From Modicisalibacter luteus DSM 23508 (lineage in GTDB: Bacteria; Pseudomonadota; Gammaproteobacteria; Pseudomonadales; Halomonadaceae): 64,000 nucleotides of DNA. Location: the NCBI RefSeq assembly GCF_000378505.1, contig NZ_KB899998.1, positions 1 through 64,000 of the forward strand, written 5' to 3'. Made by a program: the position numbers and the translations under genes. The notes under the pieces are model-generated. The model saw only the letters and a program-made list of their open reading frames with translations. It made no database searches and was not told where the DNA came from. Of this stretch, positions 20,213 through 28,053 are shown in pieces. Positions within the stretch are counted from its first letter, which is position 1. Every line of letters begins with the position of its first letter.

Positions 20213-20267
20213 GCGTCGGCTCCAGCTGTGCTAGTCTGGTCGCTTTCGATTGGTGTGGAGAGCGGTC

Positions 20268-21758
20268 ATGGCGCAGCTTGGCGCGACACAGCGAACATTT
20301 CTCTGGCACGACTACGAAACCTTCGGGGCCGATCCGCGGCGTGATCGGCCTGTGCAGTTCGCAGCCATTCGCACCGATGCCGACTTCAACGAGATCGGCG
20401 AGCCTCTGACCCTTTACTGCAAGCCGGCCGACGACTTCCTTCCGCATCCTCAAGCCTGTCTGATTACAGGTATCACACCGCAGACAGCGCGGCGGCGCGG
20501 ACTGCCCGAGGTCGAGTTCGCGGCGCGAATCAATGCCGAGATGAGCGTTCCCGGTACCTGTGTGCTGGGCTACAACAGTCTGCGCTTCGATGATGAAGTG
20601 ACGCGCCACCTGCTGTATCGCAACTTTTTCGATCCTTATGCCCGGGAATGGCAGAACGGCAATTCGCGCTGGGACCTCATCGATGTAGTGCGTACCTTTC
20701 ATGCCCTGCGTCCGGAGGGCATCGAGTGGCCGCAACGGGAGGACGGTTCGCCGAGCTTTCGCCTCGAGGAGCTGACCGCTGCCAACGGTATCGAACACGC
20801 CGGCGCGCACGATGCCTTGGCCGATGTACGGGCCACCATCGCCTTGGCAAGACTGCTGCGCTCTCGAAATGCCAAGCTGTTCGATTATCTTCTGGGGCTA
20901 CGCAACAAGCGCGACGTGGCTGCGATGCTCGACATTCCCGGACGCAAGCCCATGCTGCACATCTCACGGCGCTATCCTGCCAGCCGTGGCTGCAGTGCGC
21001 TGGTCATGCCGCTCGCCAAACACCCATCCAATTCCAATGGCATCGTCGTCTACGACCTTTCGGTGGATCCGGCGCCACTGTTCGAACTGTCCGTTGAGGA
21101 GATACGCGCAAGGGTCTTTGCCAGCGCGGATGAACTGGCCGAGGGCGAGTCGAGGATTCCGCTCAAAGTGATTCATATCAACCGAAGCCCGGTTGTCATG
21201 CCGGCCACGTTCCTCAAGGATGTCAGTGGGCCTCACAAGGGTGAATATGGCGTCATTGTCGAACGCTTGGGGCTCGACGTGGTGGCCTGTCGCCAGCACT
21301 GGAAGGCGCTGTGCGCGCATCCCGAGGCAGCCCGCAAGGCGGCGGCGGTATTTGCCGAAGGGCCGGCCCAGGGGCCGCAGGACCCTGACCTGATGCTGTA
21401 CAGCGGTGGCTTCTTCTCGCCGGCGGATCGTCAGGAGATGCAGCGGGTGTTGGATACGGCGCCCGACGCGCTGGGAGAAACGGCCTTTGCGTTTCAGGAT
21501 CCACGCCTCGAGGAGATGCTGTTCCGGTTACGGGCGCGCAACTATCCGGACACGTTAACCAGCGAGGAGCAAGCGCAATGGGAAGCCTACCGTTGGTCAC
21601 GGATGAATGATGCCACGCTGGGCGTACTGACCCTGCAGGCGTTTGCCCGTGAAATCGAAAGGTTGAATCAGGCCCCATTGAGCGATCGTGAGCGGCAGGT
21701 GCTGGAGGAGCTGGTCATGCATGTCGAGGCCATGATGCCACCACAGGCGTTTGGTTGA
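20268..21758 (+). CDS. sbcB: Exodeoxyribonuclease I
   Basis: ExoI degrades single-stranded DNA from the 3' end and acts in mismatch repair and recombination. The 496-residue protein has the DEDDh nuclease domain (HDYETFGADPRRDRPVQFAAIR at the start, with D and E; LGYNSLRFDDEVTRHLLYRNF; and HDALADVRATIALARLL with the His and Asp). An SH3-like middle and a helical C-terminal domain follow, with RARNYPDTLTSEEQ near 420. The ATG at 20268 has GGAG 7 bases upstream. It lies 55 bases after the min operon and ends before a convergent protease gene, with a terminator between. Confidence 0.95.
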   Translation: MAQLGATQRTFLWHDYETFGADPRRDRPVQFAAIRTDADFNEIGEPLTLYCKPADDFLPHPQACLITGITPQTARRRGLPEVEFAARINAEMSVPGTCVLGYNSLRFDDEVTRHLLYRNFFDPYAREWQNGNSRWDLIDVVRTFHALRPEGIEWPQREDGSPSFRLEELTAANGIEHAGAHDALADVRATIALARLLRSRNAKLFDYLLGLRNKRDVAAMLDIPGRKPMLHISRRYPASRGCSALVMPLAKHPSNSNGIVVYDLSVDPAPLFELSVEEIRARVFASADELAEGESRIPLKVIHINRSPVVMPATFLKDVSGPHKGEYGVIVERLGLDVVACRQHWKALCAHPEAARKAAAVFAEGPAQGPQDPDLMLYSGGFFSPADRQEMQRVLDTAPDALGETAFAFQDPRLEEMLFRLRARNYPDTLTSEEQAQWEAYRWSRMNDATLGVLTLQAFAREIERLNQAPLSDRERQVLEELVMHVEAMMPPQAFG

Positions 21759-21850: not shown

Positions 21851-24679
21851 TCAGCGTGCCTCGGGCAAGGGCTGATAATCCTTGGTTAGCGCTGAGACAT
21901 CGCTGGGTGACATTCCGCTGGTATAGGTGATCACTTGGGCTGGTGCGGCACGCAGCGACTGCCACGCTTGGCGCAGGGTGGCGGCATCCAGTTGCGAGAC
22001 GCGCTCGGCCAACCGCTCGCGCCGGTCGAACTCGGTATGGCCATACGCCAGCTCGTACCACAGACGATTGGTCAGGCTGGAGAGCGACGGGTCACGTTGG
22101 AGCAAGCGGTCGCGCACGGCGTCGCGATACGGGGTGATCGTCTCGTCATCGACCTGGGCGATGCGGGCGTCGAATGTTATCAGGAAGGCATCGATTCGCG
22201 ACTGTATCTTGTCGATATCGGCGCTTGGCGACTGGATCAGCAAGTTGATGCCTGGGGCATCGAGCAGTGGCTGATAGCCGGCGCTGACGATATAGCCCAG
22301 CTGTTCCTCGGTGCGCAGCTGCGCATAGAACGGGGTGTCGATCATCTGGCCGAGCACGGCTAGAGCCGCCTGGCTATCCAATGAGCGGTCAGGGCCTTGA
22401 AGATAGCGCAACACGGCGACATCGTTGCGGGTCGAGTGTGGATGCAGGGCCGGTGCCGAGCTCGGCACATCGAGGGGCTTCAGCTCTGGAATAGCCGTAT
22501 CTTCCAGCCGGGGTGCCAGGGCGTTGGCCACCGTTAGCCCCTTGCGGCGTGCTTGCTCAGGGGTCAGGTTGCCGACTGCCATGCTCTCGATGTACAGCCG
22601 ATTGAGGAAGTGTGTACGGAATTCACGCAGGTCCTCGACACCGAGCGGGGCGATGGCATCAAGTAGTGCGGCATCGCTCCACTGTGGGCGAATCAATGCG
22701 GCCCCCAGCGTGCTCTGCATCTGTTCGTAGAGGGGCGACTGCGGCGCGTTGCGCCATTCTCTTTCCAGTCCCATCTTGACCCGGGCGAAAGCGTCGCTGG
22801 CAATATCGCCCCTCTGCAATTGTTCCACGGCCCGACGCAGCACCAGTTCCTGCTGGTCACGCCAACCCGACAGGGACAGCGTAATGCCGCGGGCATGGGC
22901 ATAGGCGGAAAAATCCTGGCCAGCCAGGCGGGCGGGATACAGGGTTTCATTGAGGCTGTCGCTCAGCCAGCCGGCTAGCAATCGGGCCAGGGCGGCATCG
23001 CGAGCGCTGCTCGAGGCGTCGGGGTTCTGGAGACTGAACCGCCACTCGACGCGTGGCGTGCCAAACTCGCTATCAGGCCGATACCACAGTGAGTAATGCT
23101 CGCCATCAATCAGTGCTACAGGATCGCGGGTTTCGAGGTCGAGCAGTTCGAGGCTCTCCGCGATATACGGATTGCGCTCGGGAAGGGCCAGATCCGGTAG
23201 CGGCTCGGCTTGGGGCCAATGCTGGATCGCCGTTAGCGTATAGGGTGCGTCGAACCACTGGCTGCGTTGCTCGCCTTCCACGTCAGGACCGCTGTAGACG
23301 CGCAATAATGACTCCGGTGTGAGCGAGGAGAGCAGCTCCCTGACCTTGCCCGGATCGAGCCCTTCCATGCGGTAACTGCCGTATTGCACGTCTTCGAGGG
23401 GGTAGTGAGCCATGTTCATGGCCAGTCGGCTGGCGAGGTGGATAGGCTCGCCGCGCTGCTGGAAGCGGAACTGCTGCTCCGAGAGGCTCGCTTGTTCTTC
23501 ATAGCGCCAATCCTCGATGCCCTGTTGGCGAATGCGCGCGATCATGTCGAACAGGCTGGCCTGGATGCGGTCGAGATGCCGGGCTCCCTCGGGGGTCAGG
23601 CTGACGCTCACTGCAAACAGGGCGTCATCACCGTCGCCACGCATGCTGCCGGCAGACAGGCCATCGGCCCAGCCCTGTTTCCGCAGAGCGGCTAGCAGGC
23701 TGCCTTCCCCCTCATGGCCCAACAGGCCAGCCAGATAATCCAGCGACTTGTGGCGGTAGTCCTCGATCGGATCTTGGGTGGGAAAGAGAAAGTGCACTTG
23801 GCGTCGATTTTCCAGACTCTGTACTCGCATCTTTGCCGGGACGAGGTCTGGCGTGAGCAGGTTTTCGGGAATTTCTGGGTGGGTCAGGTTGCGATCTGGA
23901 ATGGCACTGAAGTCCTCACGTACCCATTTCTCCAGCGTTTCCAGTGGCTGTGGCGCTACCACTGCCAGGTTCATGACATTGGCGCCGTAATGATTCCGGT
24001 AGAAATCGATCAGGACGTCACGCAGCGGTTTCTCGCCGTCTCGTAGGGTCTCGAGACTGCCCACTGAGAAGCTGGTGCTCGGGTGGTCGGGGTTGAGTGC
24101 CTGATCCATGGCCTCGTTCAAGCGACGCGCATCGTCGCGCAGGCGGGCCTGATACTCCGAATGGACGGCATTGCGTTCGCGGTCGACGTATTCGGAATTG
24201 AACAGTGGAGCGATAAAGAACTGGCTGAATCGGTCGAGTGCGCCGGGAAGTGCACCTGGCTCGATGGAAAAGAAGTAATTGGTGTCCTGGCTAGCGGTGA
24301 AGGCATTGTGGCTACCGCCGTGCTGGCTGATGTACTGCTGGTAGCTGTCCGCCTCGGGATAGCGCTCGGTGCCCAGAAACAGCATATGTTCAAGAAAATG
24401 CGCTAGGCCGGGAATCGATTCGGGATTCTGGGCGCTGCCCACCGAGACATTCATCGAGGCGGCCGCCTTGTCGGCATCGGGATCGCTGACCAGTAGCACC
24501 TGTAGGCCGTTATCCAGCGTCAGGGCGCGATAGTCTCGATCATCGTTGGGGCTGATAATCGGCGCGTCGGCACGGTTGGCAGCGGTGGTTTCGCTGTCAC
24601 TCATGGCTTGGTCTGCAAGCGCCAGGCCAAGCCAGCACAGGCCCAGCCCGAGGGCACGGCGGGGTCGCGGTAGTCGCAT
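21851..24679 (-). CDS. ptrA: Periplasmic M16 metalloprotease, pitrilysin-type
   Basis: This 942-residue protein belongs to the insulysin/pitrilysin branch of the M16 zinc proteases, which degrade small peptides and unstructured polypeptides. A signal peptide is present (about 1-24, LGLGLCWLGLALA). The inverted zinc motif HFLEH (about residue 95) and the downstream Glu in RNAVHSEYQ are intact, with SHNAFTASQDTNYFF as the typical substrate-binding block. Three further M16-like domains follow, and EEQLGYIVSAG (about 800) is typical of the C-terminal half. The second of two adjacent ATG codons (24679) has better spacing (5 bases) from GGAG. It overlaps the SRAP gene stop. The symbol is by resemblance to E. 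coli protease III. Confidence 0.88.
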   Translation of the reverse strand: MRLPRPRRALGLGLCWLGLALADQAMSDSETTAANRADAPIISPNDDRDYRALTLDNGLQVLLVSDPDADKAAASMNVSVGSAQNPESIPGLAHFLEHMLFLGTERYPEADSYQQYISQHGGSHNAFTASQDTNYFFSIEPGALPGALDRFSQFFIAPLFNSEYVDRERNAVHSEYQARLRDDARRLNEAMDQALNPDHPSTSFSVGSLETLRDGEKPLRDVLIDFYRNHYGANVMNLAVVAPQPLETLEKWVREDFSAIPDRNLTHPEIPENLLTPDLVPAKMRVQSLENRRQVHFLFPTQDPIEDYRHKSLDYLAGLLGHEGEGSLLAALRKQGWADGLSAGSMRGDGDDALFAVSVSLTPEGARHLDRIQASLFDMIARIRQQGIEDWRYEEQASLSEQQFRFQQRGEPIHLASRLAMNMAHYPLEDVQYGSYRMEGLDPGKVRELLSSLTPESLLRVYSGPDVEGEQRSQWFDAPYTLTAIQHWPQAEPLPDLALPERNPYIAESLELLDLETRDPVALIDGEHYSLWYRPDSEFGTPRVEWRFSLQNPDASSSARDAALARLLAGWLSDSLNETLYPARLAGQDFSAYAHARGITLSLSGWRDQQELVLRRAVEQLQRGDIASDAFARVKMGLEREWRNAPQSPLYEQMQSTLGAALIRPQWSDAALLDAIAPLGVEDLREFRTHFLNRLYIESMAVGNLTPEQARRKGLTVANALAPRLEDTAIPELKPLDVPSSAPALHPHSTRNDVAVLRYLQGPDRSLDSQAALAVLGQMIDTPFYAQLRTEEQLGYIVSAGYQPLLDAPGINLLIQSPSADIDKIQSRIDAFLITFDARIAQVDDETITPYRDAVRDRLLQRDPSLSSLTNRLWYELAYGHTEFDRRERLAERVSQLDAATLRQAWQSLRAAPAQVITYTSGMSPSDVSALTKDYQPLPEAR

Positions 24680-25365
24680 CATGTCTCCTGTTCGCTATGC
24701 CAGCGGACCATATTGCCGGTCGGGCGACCGCAGGCCCAGTCCTGGTAAGAGGGATCGTTTACTCGTCTTGATACAGGAAAAATGCCCAACAGTTCCAAGG
24801 GAGCCGGCGAAAGGAGCGCGCGGGCGCGTTCCTGGGGCGTATCCGGAGACAGCCACCGGTCTGCGTTTTCGGGGGAGATGATGGCGGGAAACCGATCGGT
24901 GAGCGGAGCCAGCAGTTGATTCACGGGAACGGTAATCAGTGCCGTGGAATCGTTATAGTGGGTCAGCGTCGTGTGGTATCTGCACCACAAGCCGGCCAGC
25001 AGCAACGGTCCGCGGTCAGCACGGGTCACCAGGAAAGGCTGCTTCATGCGCGGCTGGGGCTTCCAGACATAGACACCGCTGACCGGAAGCAGGCAGCGGC
25101 GAGCGGTAAAGGCATCACGGAACATGGCGCGTTCGTCGAGTGACTCGGCCCGCGCGCAGTGCGGTGCGTGGTCCAGGACCTTGAGCCAGGGTGGGGTCAG
25201 TCCCCAGAATGCCGTGGCCAGGCACGGCGTTCCCTGTTCGTGACGAATGATCGAGACTGGGGTGCGGGGCGCCCGGTTGGGGCTGGTAATCAACGGCTGG
25301 GTAGCCTTGAGCCCCGGCAACAGACCGTCGAGGGGTAAAGCGGCAATATGCAGGCGTCCGGCCAT
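24679..25365 (-). CDS. SRAP (YedK/HMCES) family protein lacking active-site residues
   Basis: SRAP proteins such as YedK and HMCES crosslink to abasic sites in single-stranded DNA through Cys2 and protect them. The family framework is clear in these 228 residues: NRAPRTPVSII (30-40), FWGLTPPW (53-60), ARAES (71-75), RRCLLPVSGVYVWK (89-102), LLLAGLW (121-127), and VNQLLAPLTDRFPAIISPENADRWL (148-172). Yet the catalytic set known for YedK is replaced: Cys2 is Ala, the Asn of NARAE is Cys70, the Glu of GFYEW is Val100, and the His of HDRMP is Thr156. It therefore cannot form the usual crosslink. The ATG at 25365 is inferred from the MxGR alignment; an upstream open extension exists. It is translationally coupled to the M16 protease gene. 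Confidence 0.85.
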   Translation of the reverse strand: MAGRLHIAALPLDGLLPGLKATQPLITSPNRAPRTPVSIIRHEQGTPCLATAFWGLTPPWLKVLDHAPHCARAESLDERAMFRDAFTARRCLLPVSGVYVWKPQPRMKQPFLVTRADRGPLLLAGLWCRYHTTLTHYNDSTALITVPVNQLLAPLTDRFPAIISPENADRWLSPDTPQERARALLSPAPLELLGIFPVSRRVNDPSYQDWACGRPTGNMVRWHSEQET

Positions 25366-25559
25366 GGTCGGTCTCTTGGCTGGTGAGTCATTGTGCGGTT
25401 TCCCAGGATATCGCTGCCCTGGGTTGGCAGCCATTGGCAGTCATGGTACGCGTTCGGGACTTGCGTTTACGTGCGGTGTCGATATGCTGAGCGAAAACAG
25501 TGTTCGATCATTGTCGCTTCCGAGCGCGCATGGAAGCGATTTGCGAAACGAGGTTAACG

Positions 25560-26177
25560 ATGGCACGTCCCCGACAGCACGCGCCCGAGGCATTGCATGC
25601 CCAGGTGATGGCCGCATGTGATGCATGGCTGCGGGAGAATCCTGTGCATACACTTTCTCTGCGTGCCTTGGCGCGCGAGATTGGTTGCGCGCCCAGTACG
25701 CTGCTCAAGCTTTATGGCAGCTTCAACAACCTGCTTCAGTACGTCAACATCGAAACGCTCGATAGGTTGCGTGCTGCAGTCGAAGGTCTGAGTGGGGCCA
25801 CGCCCGAACCGCAGCTCAAGGCATTGGCAACGGCTTATTGGCAGTTTGCGCAGGAGGATCCCTTCCGCTGGCAACTGCTTTTCGACTATCCCTTGGCGCA
25901 AGAAGGTGAGCTGGACCAGCGGCAGAGCAGCATGATCGAGGCATTGTTCACACGTGTCGAGGCGACGCTCAAGGAGTATCAGCCAGCACTCGGTGAGCTC
26001 GAGGCGCGGCGCATGGCACGTACCTTGTGGGGTAGTGTGCATGGCCTGGTGCAGCTGGGACTTAACGAGCGCCTTGGTTACTGGCAAGGGCAGGCTCTTG
26101 AGGTCGGGGAATTGCTCGATCAGTTATTGACCACAATCCTGGCCGGCCTCAGGTCGTCATCCAACCAGAGTGAGTGA
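25560..26177 (+). CDS. TetR family transcriptional regulator
   Basis: The 205-residue protein has an N-terminal TetR-type helix-turn-helix (about 20-60): HTLSLRALAREIGCAPSTLLKLYGSFNNLLQYVN. The C-terminal ligand domain ends with SVHGLVQLGLNERLGYWQ, resembling WHG-type TetR C-terminal domains. The ATG at 25560 has CGAGG 6 bases before it. It is divergent from the SRAP gene, and its last bases overlap the next gene (8-base overlap), so it may control the downstream MFS-acyltransferase fusion. The inducer is unknown. Confidence 0.82.
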   Translation: MARPRQHAPEALHAQVMAACDAWLRENPVHTLSLRALAREIGCAPSTLLKLYGSFNNLLQYVNIETLDRLRAAVEGLSGATPEPQLKALATAYWQFAQEDPFRWQLLFDYPLAQEGELDQRQSSMIEALFTRVEATLKEYQPALGELEARRMARTLWGSVHGLVQLGLNERLGYWQGQALEVGELLDQLLTTILAGLRSSSNQSE

Positions 26178-28053
26178 GTCATTGCTGACGCAGCGCCGCT
26201 TTGCCCCGTTCTTCTGGTCCCAGGCCTTGGGCGCCTTCAATGACAACTTGTTCAAGAATGTTCTGCTGCTGTTGCTGACTTTCGTGGCCGTGCCTCGGCA
26301 CGGCTGGGATACGGGGTTGCTCAACAATCTGGCTGCAGGGTTGTTCATCCTGCCCTTCCTGTTGTTTTCCGCCTGGGGGGGGGCGTTGGCCGATCGTCTC
26401 GACAAGCAGCGCCTGATTCGCCGCCTCAAGCTGCTCGAGCTGGCTACGATGTGTGCGGCAGCGGCAGCGGTCTGGTTCGAGCAGTTTGCCGTACTTCTGG
26501 GGCTGCTGTTCATGATGGGCACGCAGTCGGCGCTTTTCGGGCCGGTCAAATACGCTATTCTGCCGCAGCATCTGCGCCCCACCGAACTGGTGCGCGGCAA
26601 CGCCTGGGTCAACTTGGGAACCTTCGTCTCGATCCTGCTGGGAACGCTGCTGGCCGGGGTGCTGGCTTCTCTGGAGGGCAGTTGGTCACGGGCTGCGATT
26701 GCCTTAACGCTGGTGGGTGTCGCCCTGGCTGGGTACTTGGTCAGCCTGGGGGTTCCCATTGCGCCTTCCAGTGCGCCGGGGCCCGTGGCATGGCGGCCAT
26801 TGTCGGGCAGTGTTCAGATATTGCGCGATAGCTGGCGGCATCCGCGTATCTTCCGGGGGCTGCTGGGAATCAGCGTGTTCTGGTTCCTGGGCGCCAGCTA
26901 CCTGACGCAGTTACCGGCCTGGGTGCGCGATGTAGTGCATGCAGACGAGACCGCCGTAAGCGCCCTGCTGGCGGCGTTCGCGCTGGGTGTAGGTGGCGGG
27001 GCGCTATTGTGCGCTCGGTTGTCCGGAGGGCGACTGGAAGTGGGGCTGATTCCTCTGGGCGCGCTGATTATTGGCGCCGCCGGGCTCGATCTGGCTCTAC
27101 AGCCGGCTATCGTTGGCGAGCAGTTGAGCTTGGTGGCGCTTTTGGCGGTGCCTGGCTTCTGGCGCATGGCGCTGGACCTGGCATTGATCGGCGTTGGCGG
27201 CGGACTGTATATCGTTCCTCTGTATACCCTGGTCCAGCTAGCCAGCCATGACGAACATCGTGCGAGGATGATTGCCGCCAACAATCTGCTTAACGCTCTG
27301 TTCATGATACTCGCCGCCGTTTTCGGCATCGTGGTGCTGAGCGTGTTTGGCGCTTCGCTGCACGTCTTCTTCGCCGGGCTGGCGGGCATCGCCCTGGCAA
27401 CGGGCATCTATGTGCTGATGGCCAACCCTCGCTCGGTACTGCGATTGGCCATCTTTGCGCTGACGCATGTGCTGTATCGCCTGCGGTTCACGGGGCGCAA
27501 CCACATTCCCGCCGAAGGGCCGGCACTGGTGGTTTGCAATCATGTCAGCTTCATGGATGCCTTGATACTGGGGGGTGGCAGTCCGCGCCCGTTGCGCTTT
27601 CTGATGGACCGCCCAATCTACGAATCGCCGTGGCTGAACTGGTTCTTCCGTATTGCCGGGGCGATACCCGTGGACTCGGAACGCCGAGATCCAGGGGGGA
27701 TTCGACGTGCGCTGGAACAGGTCAGCCTGGCCTTGCGCAGCGGCGAGGTTGTCATGCTTTTCCCTGAAGGGCGGCTGACCCCGGATGGTGATGTGCATCG
27801 CTTCCGGCGCGGCGTGGACATGATCCTGTCGCGCGATGCTGTACCTGTCGTGCCGGCAGCATTGGCCGGGCTATGGGGTTCGTGGACCTCGAATCGAGAA
27901 GGCCCGGCACTAGCCAAGCGCCCACGCCGTTTTCGCGCCAAGGTGGCGCTGGTATTTGGTGAGCCGATGGCGCCTGAGGCTACAAACAGTACCAGTCTTG
28001 AGGCCAAGGTGCGCGAACTCAAGACCGCTGCCGAGCGACGCATTCTCGACTAA
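26170..28053 (+). CDS. LplT-like MFS transporter fused to PlsC-type acyltransferase
   Basis: The 627-residue protein joins two functions. Residues about 10-410 form a 12-helix MFS permease like LplT, the lysophospholipid flippase (SQALGAFNDNLFKN at the start, LFGPVKYAILPQHL near 120). Residues about 430-627 form a glycerolipid acyltransferase with NHVSFMD (HxxxxD motif), PEGRLTPDG and VPAALAGLWGS. The likely role is to bring in and reacylate lysophospholipids. E. coli separates LplT from Aas; here the acyl-ACP synthetase part of Aas is absent. The start is GTG at 26170, overlapping the TetR gene by 8 bases; TTG at 26182 is an alternative. Confidence 0.85.
   Translation: MSESLLTQRRFAPFFWSQALGAFNDNLFKNVLLLLLTFVAVPRHGWDTGLLNNLAAGLFILPFLLFSAWGGALADRLDKQRLIRRLKLLELATMCAAAAAVWFEQFAVLLGLLFMMGTQSALFGPVKYAILPQHLRPTELVRGNAWVNLGTFVSILLGTLLAGVLASLEGSWSRAAIALTLVGVALAGYLVSLGVPIAPSSAPGPVAWRPLSGSVQILRDSWRHPRIFRGLLGISVFWFLGASYLTQLPAWVRDVVHADETAVSALLAAFALGVGGGALLCARLSGGRLEVGLIPLGALIIGAAGLDLALQPAIVGEQLSLVALLAVPGFWRMALDLALIGVGGGLYIVPLYTLVQLASHDEHRARMIAANNLLNALFMILAAVFGIVVLSVFGASLHVFFAGLAGIALATGIYVLMANPRSVLRLAIFALTHVLYRLRFTGRNHIPAEGPALVVCNHVSFMDALILGGGSPRPLRFLMDRPIYESPWLNWFFRIAGAIPVDSERRDPGGIRRALEQVSLALRSGEVVMLFPEGRLTPDGDVHRFRRGVDMILSRDAVPVVPAALAGLWGSWTSNREGPALAKRPRRFRAKVALVFGEPMAPEATNSTSLEAKVRELKTAAERRILD

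Follow-up and report, generated by a model that had tools for sequence, protein, structure and literature searches.

A SRAP-fold protein without the four catalytic residues of YedK in Modicisalibacter luteus and its relatives

SRAPx is a protein encoded in Modicisalibacter luteus DSM 23508, in a window of 64,000 nucleotides (positions 1 to 64,000 of contig NZ_KB899998.1) that forms the whole stretch of DNA analysed here. Its closest described relatives are YedK of Escherichia coli, a member of the SRAP family (PF02586), and human HMCES, a crosslinker with a catalytic Cys2. Both are DNA-damage proteins of the type that forms a thiazolidine crosslink to abasic single-stranded DNA. In the passages of the YedK study that deal with the active site (PMC9436759), Cys2 makes the crosslink, and Glu105 and His160 provide acid–base catalysis. 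The C2A mutant forms no stable crosslink and is an abasic-site (AP) lyase that works through its α-amine, an activity that is 25-fold slower in C2A E105Q and merely 2.5-fold slower in C2A H160Q. According to the same passages, mutation to alanine of an active-site residue, taken to be Asn75, has little effect, and residue 75 (printed as Asp75) touches the backbone of Cys2. The paper that named SRAP calls the Cys in second position absolutely conserved, and its main text contains neither the word Halomonas nor the word M16 (PMC3765255). In the open-access literature searched, titles and abstract openings describe no SRAP subfamily without Cys2.

The four catalytic positions

SRAPx matches the Pfam SRAP family with an E-value of 3.5e-41 and 141.6 bits against a cut-off of 27.1, and is predicted to adopt the SRAP fold. 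The open reading frame runs from 25365 to 24679 on the minus strand, stop included, and encodes 228 amino acids with zero internal stops. The original prediction, which was made from the letters of this DNA and did not state the strand, had already proposed both the SRAP membership and the intact frame. It had also named four replaced active-site residues, and these are borne out by the alignment to YedK, where residues 2, 70, 100 and 156 of SRAPx (A/C/V/T) stand at the sites of Cys2, Asn75, Glu105 and His160. The counts below refer to 124 SRAPx rows in a set of 205 distinct sequences plus YedK, which further holds 75 canonical rows (C/N/E/H) and 7 of other types; SRAPx is defined by A, T, P or S at position 2 together with a residue present at position 160. 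The four codons are placed from sequence and alignment.

24679–25365, minus strand: SRAPx, SRAP-fold protein of 228 amino acids without the four catalytic residues (Pfam match, YedK alignment)
25360–25362, minus strand: codon of Ala2, at the site of the crosslinking Cys2; none of the 124 SRAPx rows has Cys here, which follows in part from how the group is defined
25156–25158, minus strand: codon of Cys70, at the site of YedK Asn75; 106 of 124 rows share the Cys and none has Asn
25066–25068, minus strand: codon of Val100, at the site of Glu105; Glu retained in 6 of 124 rows, all in group g15
24898–24900, minus strand: codon of Thr156, at the site of His160; His in 1 of 124 rows (L189, on a long branch)

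Two ways in which the catalytic residues might have been overlooked were considered. The four matching alignment columns contain no Cys, Asn, Glu or His of the window protein, save Cys70 in the Asn75 column. An alternative start yielding a Met-Cys N-terminus is rejected, since no Met-Cys occurs in the in-frame extension 5' of the ATG (an open reading frame of 251 amino acids), and the relatives read begin with Met-x-Gly-Arg at the matching start. The window protein thus has none of the four residues of the YedK and HMCES crosslinking enzymes, the comparison with HMCES being one of literature description and not of alignment. The YedK C2A laboratory mutant (PDB code 8d2m) keeps Asn75, Glu105 and His160 and is still an AP lyase (PMC9436759, mutant section), whereas the window protein is without these residues too. 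By analogy with the YedK mutants, neither crosslinking nor good cleavage should be expected of the window protein, an analogy drawn from a relative that is about 25% identical.

Relatives, distribution and selection

The main sample of relatives consists of the best 80 of 165 and leans towards close ones; diverged family members were added separately. A protein row was obtained for 234 of 243 loci, the other 9 being broken, cut off, or without an M-x-G-R start near the expected place. The first residue is given as Met wherever the start codon differs from ATG, as in the g6 genomes among others. Among the 124 SRAPx rows, position 2 is A in 98, T in 15, S in 7 and P in 4, position 100 is mostly V, A, L or I, and position 156 mostly T or S. 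The 18 rows without Cys70, which share clade and locus with the rest, carry V, I, S, T, L, A or M instead: Val in the g6 genomes, other residues in other diverged members. His69 accompanies Cys70 in 106 of 106 rows, and both are invariant in the 43-row alignment A1. The six g15 rows that retain Glu105 have T or P at position 2, two SRAPx rows from another family have Asp at the Glu105 site, and the single His at position 160 (L189) occurs in a doubtful alignment. The exact A2/C70/V100/T156 set is not fixed in the family.

In a tree of 127 rows, which includes one in four of the 106 Cys70 rows, the 45 SRAPx rows form one clade with support 100/98, and a single origin of SRAPx is indicated by the sequences. 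Beside it, with weak support (94/68), sits a second divergent SRAP type from family f19, which we take to be Pseudomonadaceae (rows L161, L162, L164, L165, L167 and L168; L258 is of the same type and absent from the tree), so that a union of the two may be considered neither shown nor rejected. This type has Cys or Ser at position 2, keeps Glu105, has His at the Asn75 site (Gln in L258) and no residue at the His160 site. In all six rows it shares with SRAPx the loss of Asn75 and of the His160 segment, and two of the six have lost Cys2 as well (Ser); unlike SRAPx it keeps Glu105, may have Cys at position 2, and shows no M16 gene within the 1.5 kb flanking each of the six, nor in two longer regions. 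The two rows with Ser2, which lack both a residue at 160 and an M16 gene, are not covered by the SRAPx definition. A divergent SRAP gene of an f19 genome (L248:5436-6272) adjoins an M48 metallopeptidase gene. SRAPs of family f7 (L166/L272 from G453, and L251 from G280) keep Cys2 and Asn75, with Glu105 replaced by Asp and His160 by Thr; L166 lies on a long branch.

The loss is confined to the catalytic positions. Of 25 positions conserved to at least 90% in the 82 non-SRAPx rows, the 124 SRAPx rows have lost four (2, 75, 105 and 160) and keep the other 21 at a frequency of at least 0.93. A count from the canonical rows, partly circular as the rows were sorted by these very sites, gives 21 positions conserved to at least 95%, of which the same four are lost and the other 17 kept in at least 93%. 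Within the SRAPx clade, sites 2, 75, 105 and 160 require 6, 8, 11 and 13 changes, against none for R4, N37, P40, W106, R162 and P164, and one each for W67 and R77. Across thirteen SRAPx pairs with 71–96% identity, the ratio of nonsynonymous to synonymous substitution rates (dN/dS) is 0.07 to 0.22. SRAPx is under purifying selection; catalysis has probably been abandoned and the scaffold retained. The mean net charge is +4.7 for core SRAPx and +3 for diverged SRAPx, compared with −2.4 for the canonical rows, and the positive charge adds to the four replacements as a difference from YedK.

The window protein is matched in 272 of 275 genomes of its family at E ≤0.001, the weakest match being a fragment in G243. 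By hand count, 153 genomes have exactly one SRAP match and 119 have more; in the single-copy genomes the scores (E <1e-32, bar the G243 fragment) point to SRAPx as that copy. Copies broken by frameshifts occur in G199 and G266, assemblies that are 89% and 74% complete (L170, L184, L194–L196), where decay and assembly error are indistinguishable. A second, canonical YedK, whose presence the original prediction had left to be checked, is found in the same genome (G000:C1:193515-194129); it starts with MCGRF, has C/N/E/H at the four sites, and is divergent beside genes for an S24 peptidase (umuD-like) and a umuC-type polymerase. A retained pseudoenzyme rather than a decayed gene, as had been proposed, is supported by the presence in 272 of 275 genomes, the low dN/dS, the gene order in 80 of 80 loci described below, and the restriction of the loss to four catalytic positions.

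Outside the family, the classification covers the listed loci and some further regions, a part of the matching genomes. In a second GTDB family (f34) a SRAP match is present in 22 of 79 genomes; all 22 were classified, and two have SRAPx. The search of the order gave matches in 158 of 391 genomes and that of the class in 120 of 377. One of 10 listed other-family loci from the order is SRAPx (L160); 25 of 26 listed class loci gave a row, all 25 C/N/E/H; and among 16 further regions from the order, 14 gave a row, none of them SRAPx and none with M16. A mobile origin of SRAPx was rejected: four stretches in viral_contigs fit a pattern, none coding for a relative (a search that reaches close relatives only), and the best 10 matches listed each for phages (49 records) and plasmids (1609 records) are all below 60% identity.

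The SRAPx–M16 locus

SRAPx is followed on the same strand by a gene for an M16 peptidase and preceded by a divergent regulator gene.

21851–24682, minus strand: M16 peptidase (insulinase/pitrilysin type), 943 amino acids, with Pfam M16 domains; its first 4 bases overlap the end of SRAPx
20250–21758, plus strand: exonuclease I (sbcB-like; Pfam Exonuc_X-T_C and RNase_T), convergent with the M16 gene; start codon provisional
25560–26177, plus strand: TetR-type regulator (Pfam TetR_C_33), divergent from SRAPx

Among the seven genes searched, the order of divergent TetR, SRAPx and M16, with SRAPx and M16 on the same strand, is found in 80 of 80 loci, and the convergent exonuclease I beyond M16 in 74, being undetected in 6. 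A mechanical search placed the M16 start in 73 of 80 loci, between −10 and +43 bases relative to the SRAPx stop, with the 4-base overlap in 39; in the remaining 7 it located none. In g14, g15 and g22, TetR is undetected and the SRAPx–M16 pair intact, with exonuclease I next in the five longer regions read (L267, L268, L269, L273 and L274). The second GTDB family shows the order SRAPx–M16–exonuclease I too, in G363 and G1018, and TetR was undetected in the f34 loci read. All 124 SRAPx rows have an M16 gene in their locus, as does 1 of the 82 others, there a stretch with 27% identity; the flanks compared are unequal, 6 kb for the best 80 loci and 1.5 kb for most others, and the SRAPx loci added later have flanks of 1.5 kb, equal to those of the canonical loci. 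In G005, TetR and M16 are still neighbours and SRAPx is missing. Downstream of the TetR gene, the window encodes a protein with major-facilitator and acyltransferase domains (26170–28053), which is undetected in 3 of 80 loci.

Unlike YedK, SRAPx lies beside M16 and exonuclease I. As a sign of SOS association, a perfect LexA-type box (CTGT-N8-ACAG) was looked for and is found in none of 80 SRAPx upstream stretches. A single mismatch is present in 11 of these, compared with 4 in one shuffle of each, while 6 of 30 canonical SRAP upstream stretches have the perfect box (0 in one shuffle); the canonical copy of the same genome has a box with two mismatches only. There are no SOS genes among the four window neighbours scanned, and umuDC was not searched for at other SRAPx loci. 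A scan of 24400–25700 for sigma-70 promoters and terminators gave 0 and 0, with 0.3 and 0.9 in shuffles.

Possible functions of SRAPx

Because the catalytic residues are gone, the rest is under selection, and the altered gene is found family-wide and beyond, SRAPx very probably has a job other than crosslinking damaged DNA. The reading that we favour, with moderate confidence, is that of a SRAP-fold pseudoenzyme, unable to crosslink in the manner of YedK and HMCES and kept for another selected function, most likely non-covalent DNA binding. The retained framework and the positive net charge suggest that the SRAP cleft would bind DNA non-covalently, probably single-stranded or junction DNA, and SRAPx might then, for example, shield the bound DNA or pass it on. 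A working link with M16 or exonuclease I may exist. Some observations weigh against this picture. The positive charge could instead reflect binding of RNA or protein. Of the 79 genomes of the second GTDB family, 74 have an M16 match (weak in a few cases) as against two with SRAPx, and the three genomes of the 275 without a SRAP match all retain M16. In addition, the N-terminus of M16, judged by eye, resembles a secretion signal, which makes a direct complex with a cytoplasmic SRAPx unlikely. All 30 second-family loci loaded (L275–L304) have M16 and exonuclease I side by side and convergent, 29 of them without SRAPx. The pair thus stands without SRAPx, and the long conservation of the order is better evidence for common descent of the locus than for joint function.

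The constant position of SRAPx 5' of M16 on the same strand, the spacing of the two genes with its frequent 4-base overlap, and several SRAPx-specific conserved residues outside the four old active-site positions would fit a protein-binding or regulatory module, such as a partner of M16 or a means of controlling its expression by translational coupling, for which DNA is no longer the ligand. Such a module seems rather unlikely: M16 appears secreted and does without SRAPx in most second-family and three family genomes, the frequent pairing of M16 with exonuclease I where SRAPx is missing suggests that the neighbourhood may be an inherited order, and the framework that SRAPx keeps is that conserved in other SRAPs. 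We regard it as improbable that SRAPx is a weak abasic-site lyase, in which removal of Met would free the N-terminal amine of residue 2 for a Schiff base that does not lead to a stable crosslink. Ala, Thr, Ser and Pro, the residues found at position 2 in 124 of 124 rows, are all compatible with removal of the initiator Met; Thr, Ser and Pro are, however, each one base from an Ala codon and six changes suffice, so that the narrow set is weak evidence. The α-amine lyase activity of YedK C2A and the mild effect of H160Q speak for such a lyase, and the case is strongest for g15, where Thr or Pro at position 2 is combined with the retained Glu, but the core group, including the window protein, is without Glu105, the residue whose replacement slows the C2A lyase 25-fold.

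A rebuilt active site, in which the His69–Cys70 pair of the core group would supply a nucleophile where Asn75 once stood, is very unlikely, although the constancy of the pair and the contact of YedK residue 75 with the Cys2 backbone are in its favour. Within the clade, 18 rows with the usual locus carry other residues at position 70, so that Cys is not needed clade-wide; Cys70 as a clade-wide nucleophile is rejected by these rows, and not within the core. That the gene has been decaying since the loss of its active site, as the broken copies in G199 and G266 and the three genomes without the gene might suggest, is contradicted by what selection and distribution show, namely the dN/dS values, the 124 distinct intact sequences, the limitation of the loss to four positions and the persistence in two GTDB families, and we give it next to no credence. 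A more speculative scheme, which we hold to be distinctly doubtful, is a stepwise change of mechanism in the SRAP fold, from a crosslinker through an N-terminal-amine lyase (g15, with Thr or Pro at position 2 and Glu kept) to either a protein that only binds DNA or, within the core group, a new His69–Cys70 enzyme.

SRAPx represents an old SRAP subfamily that lacks Cys2 and the other three catalytic residues and is present in nearly every family genome searched. It separates the needs of SRAP chemistry from what the fold is kept for, and provides natural proteins for testing what a non-crosslinking SRAP does.
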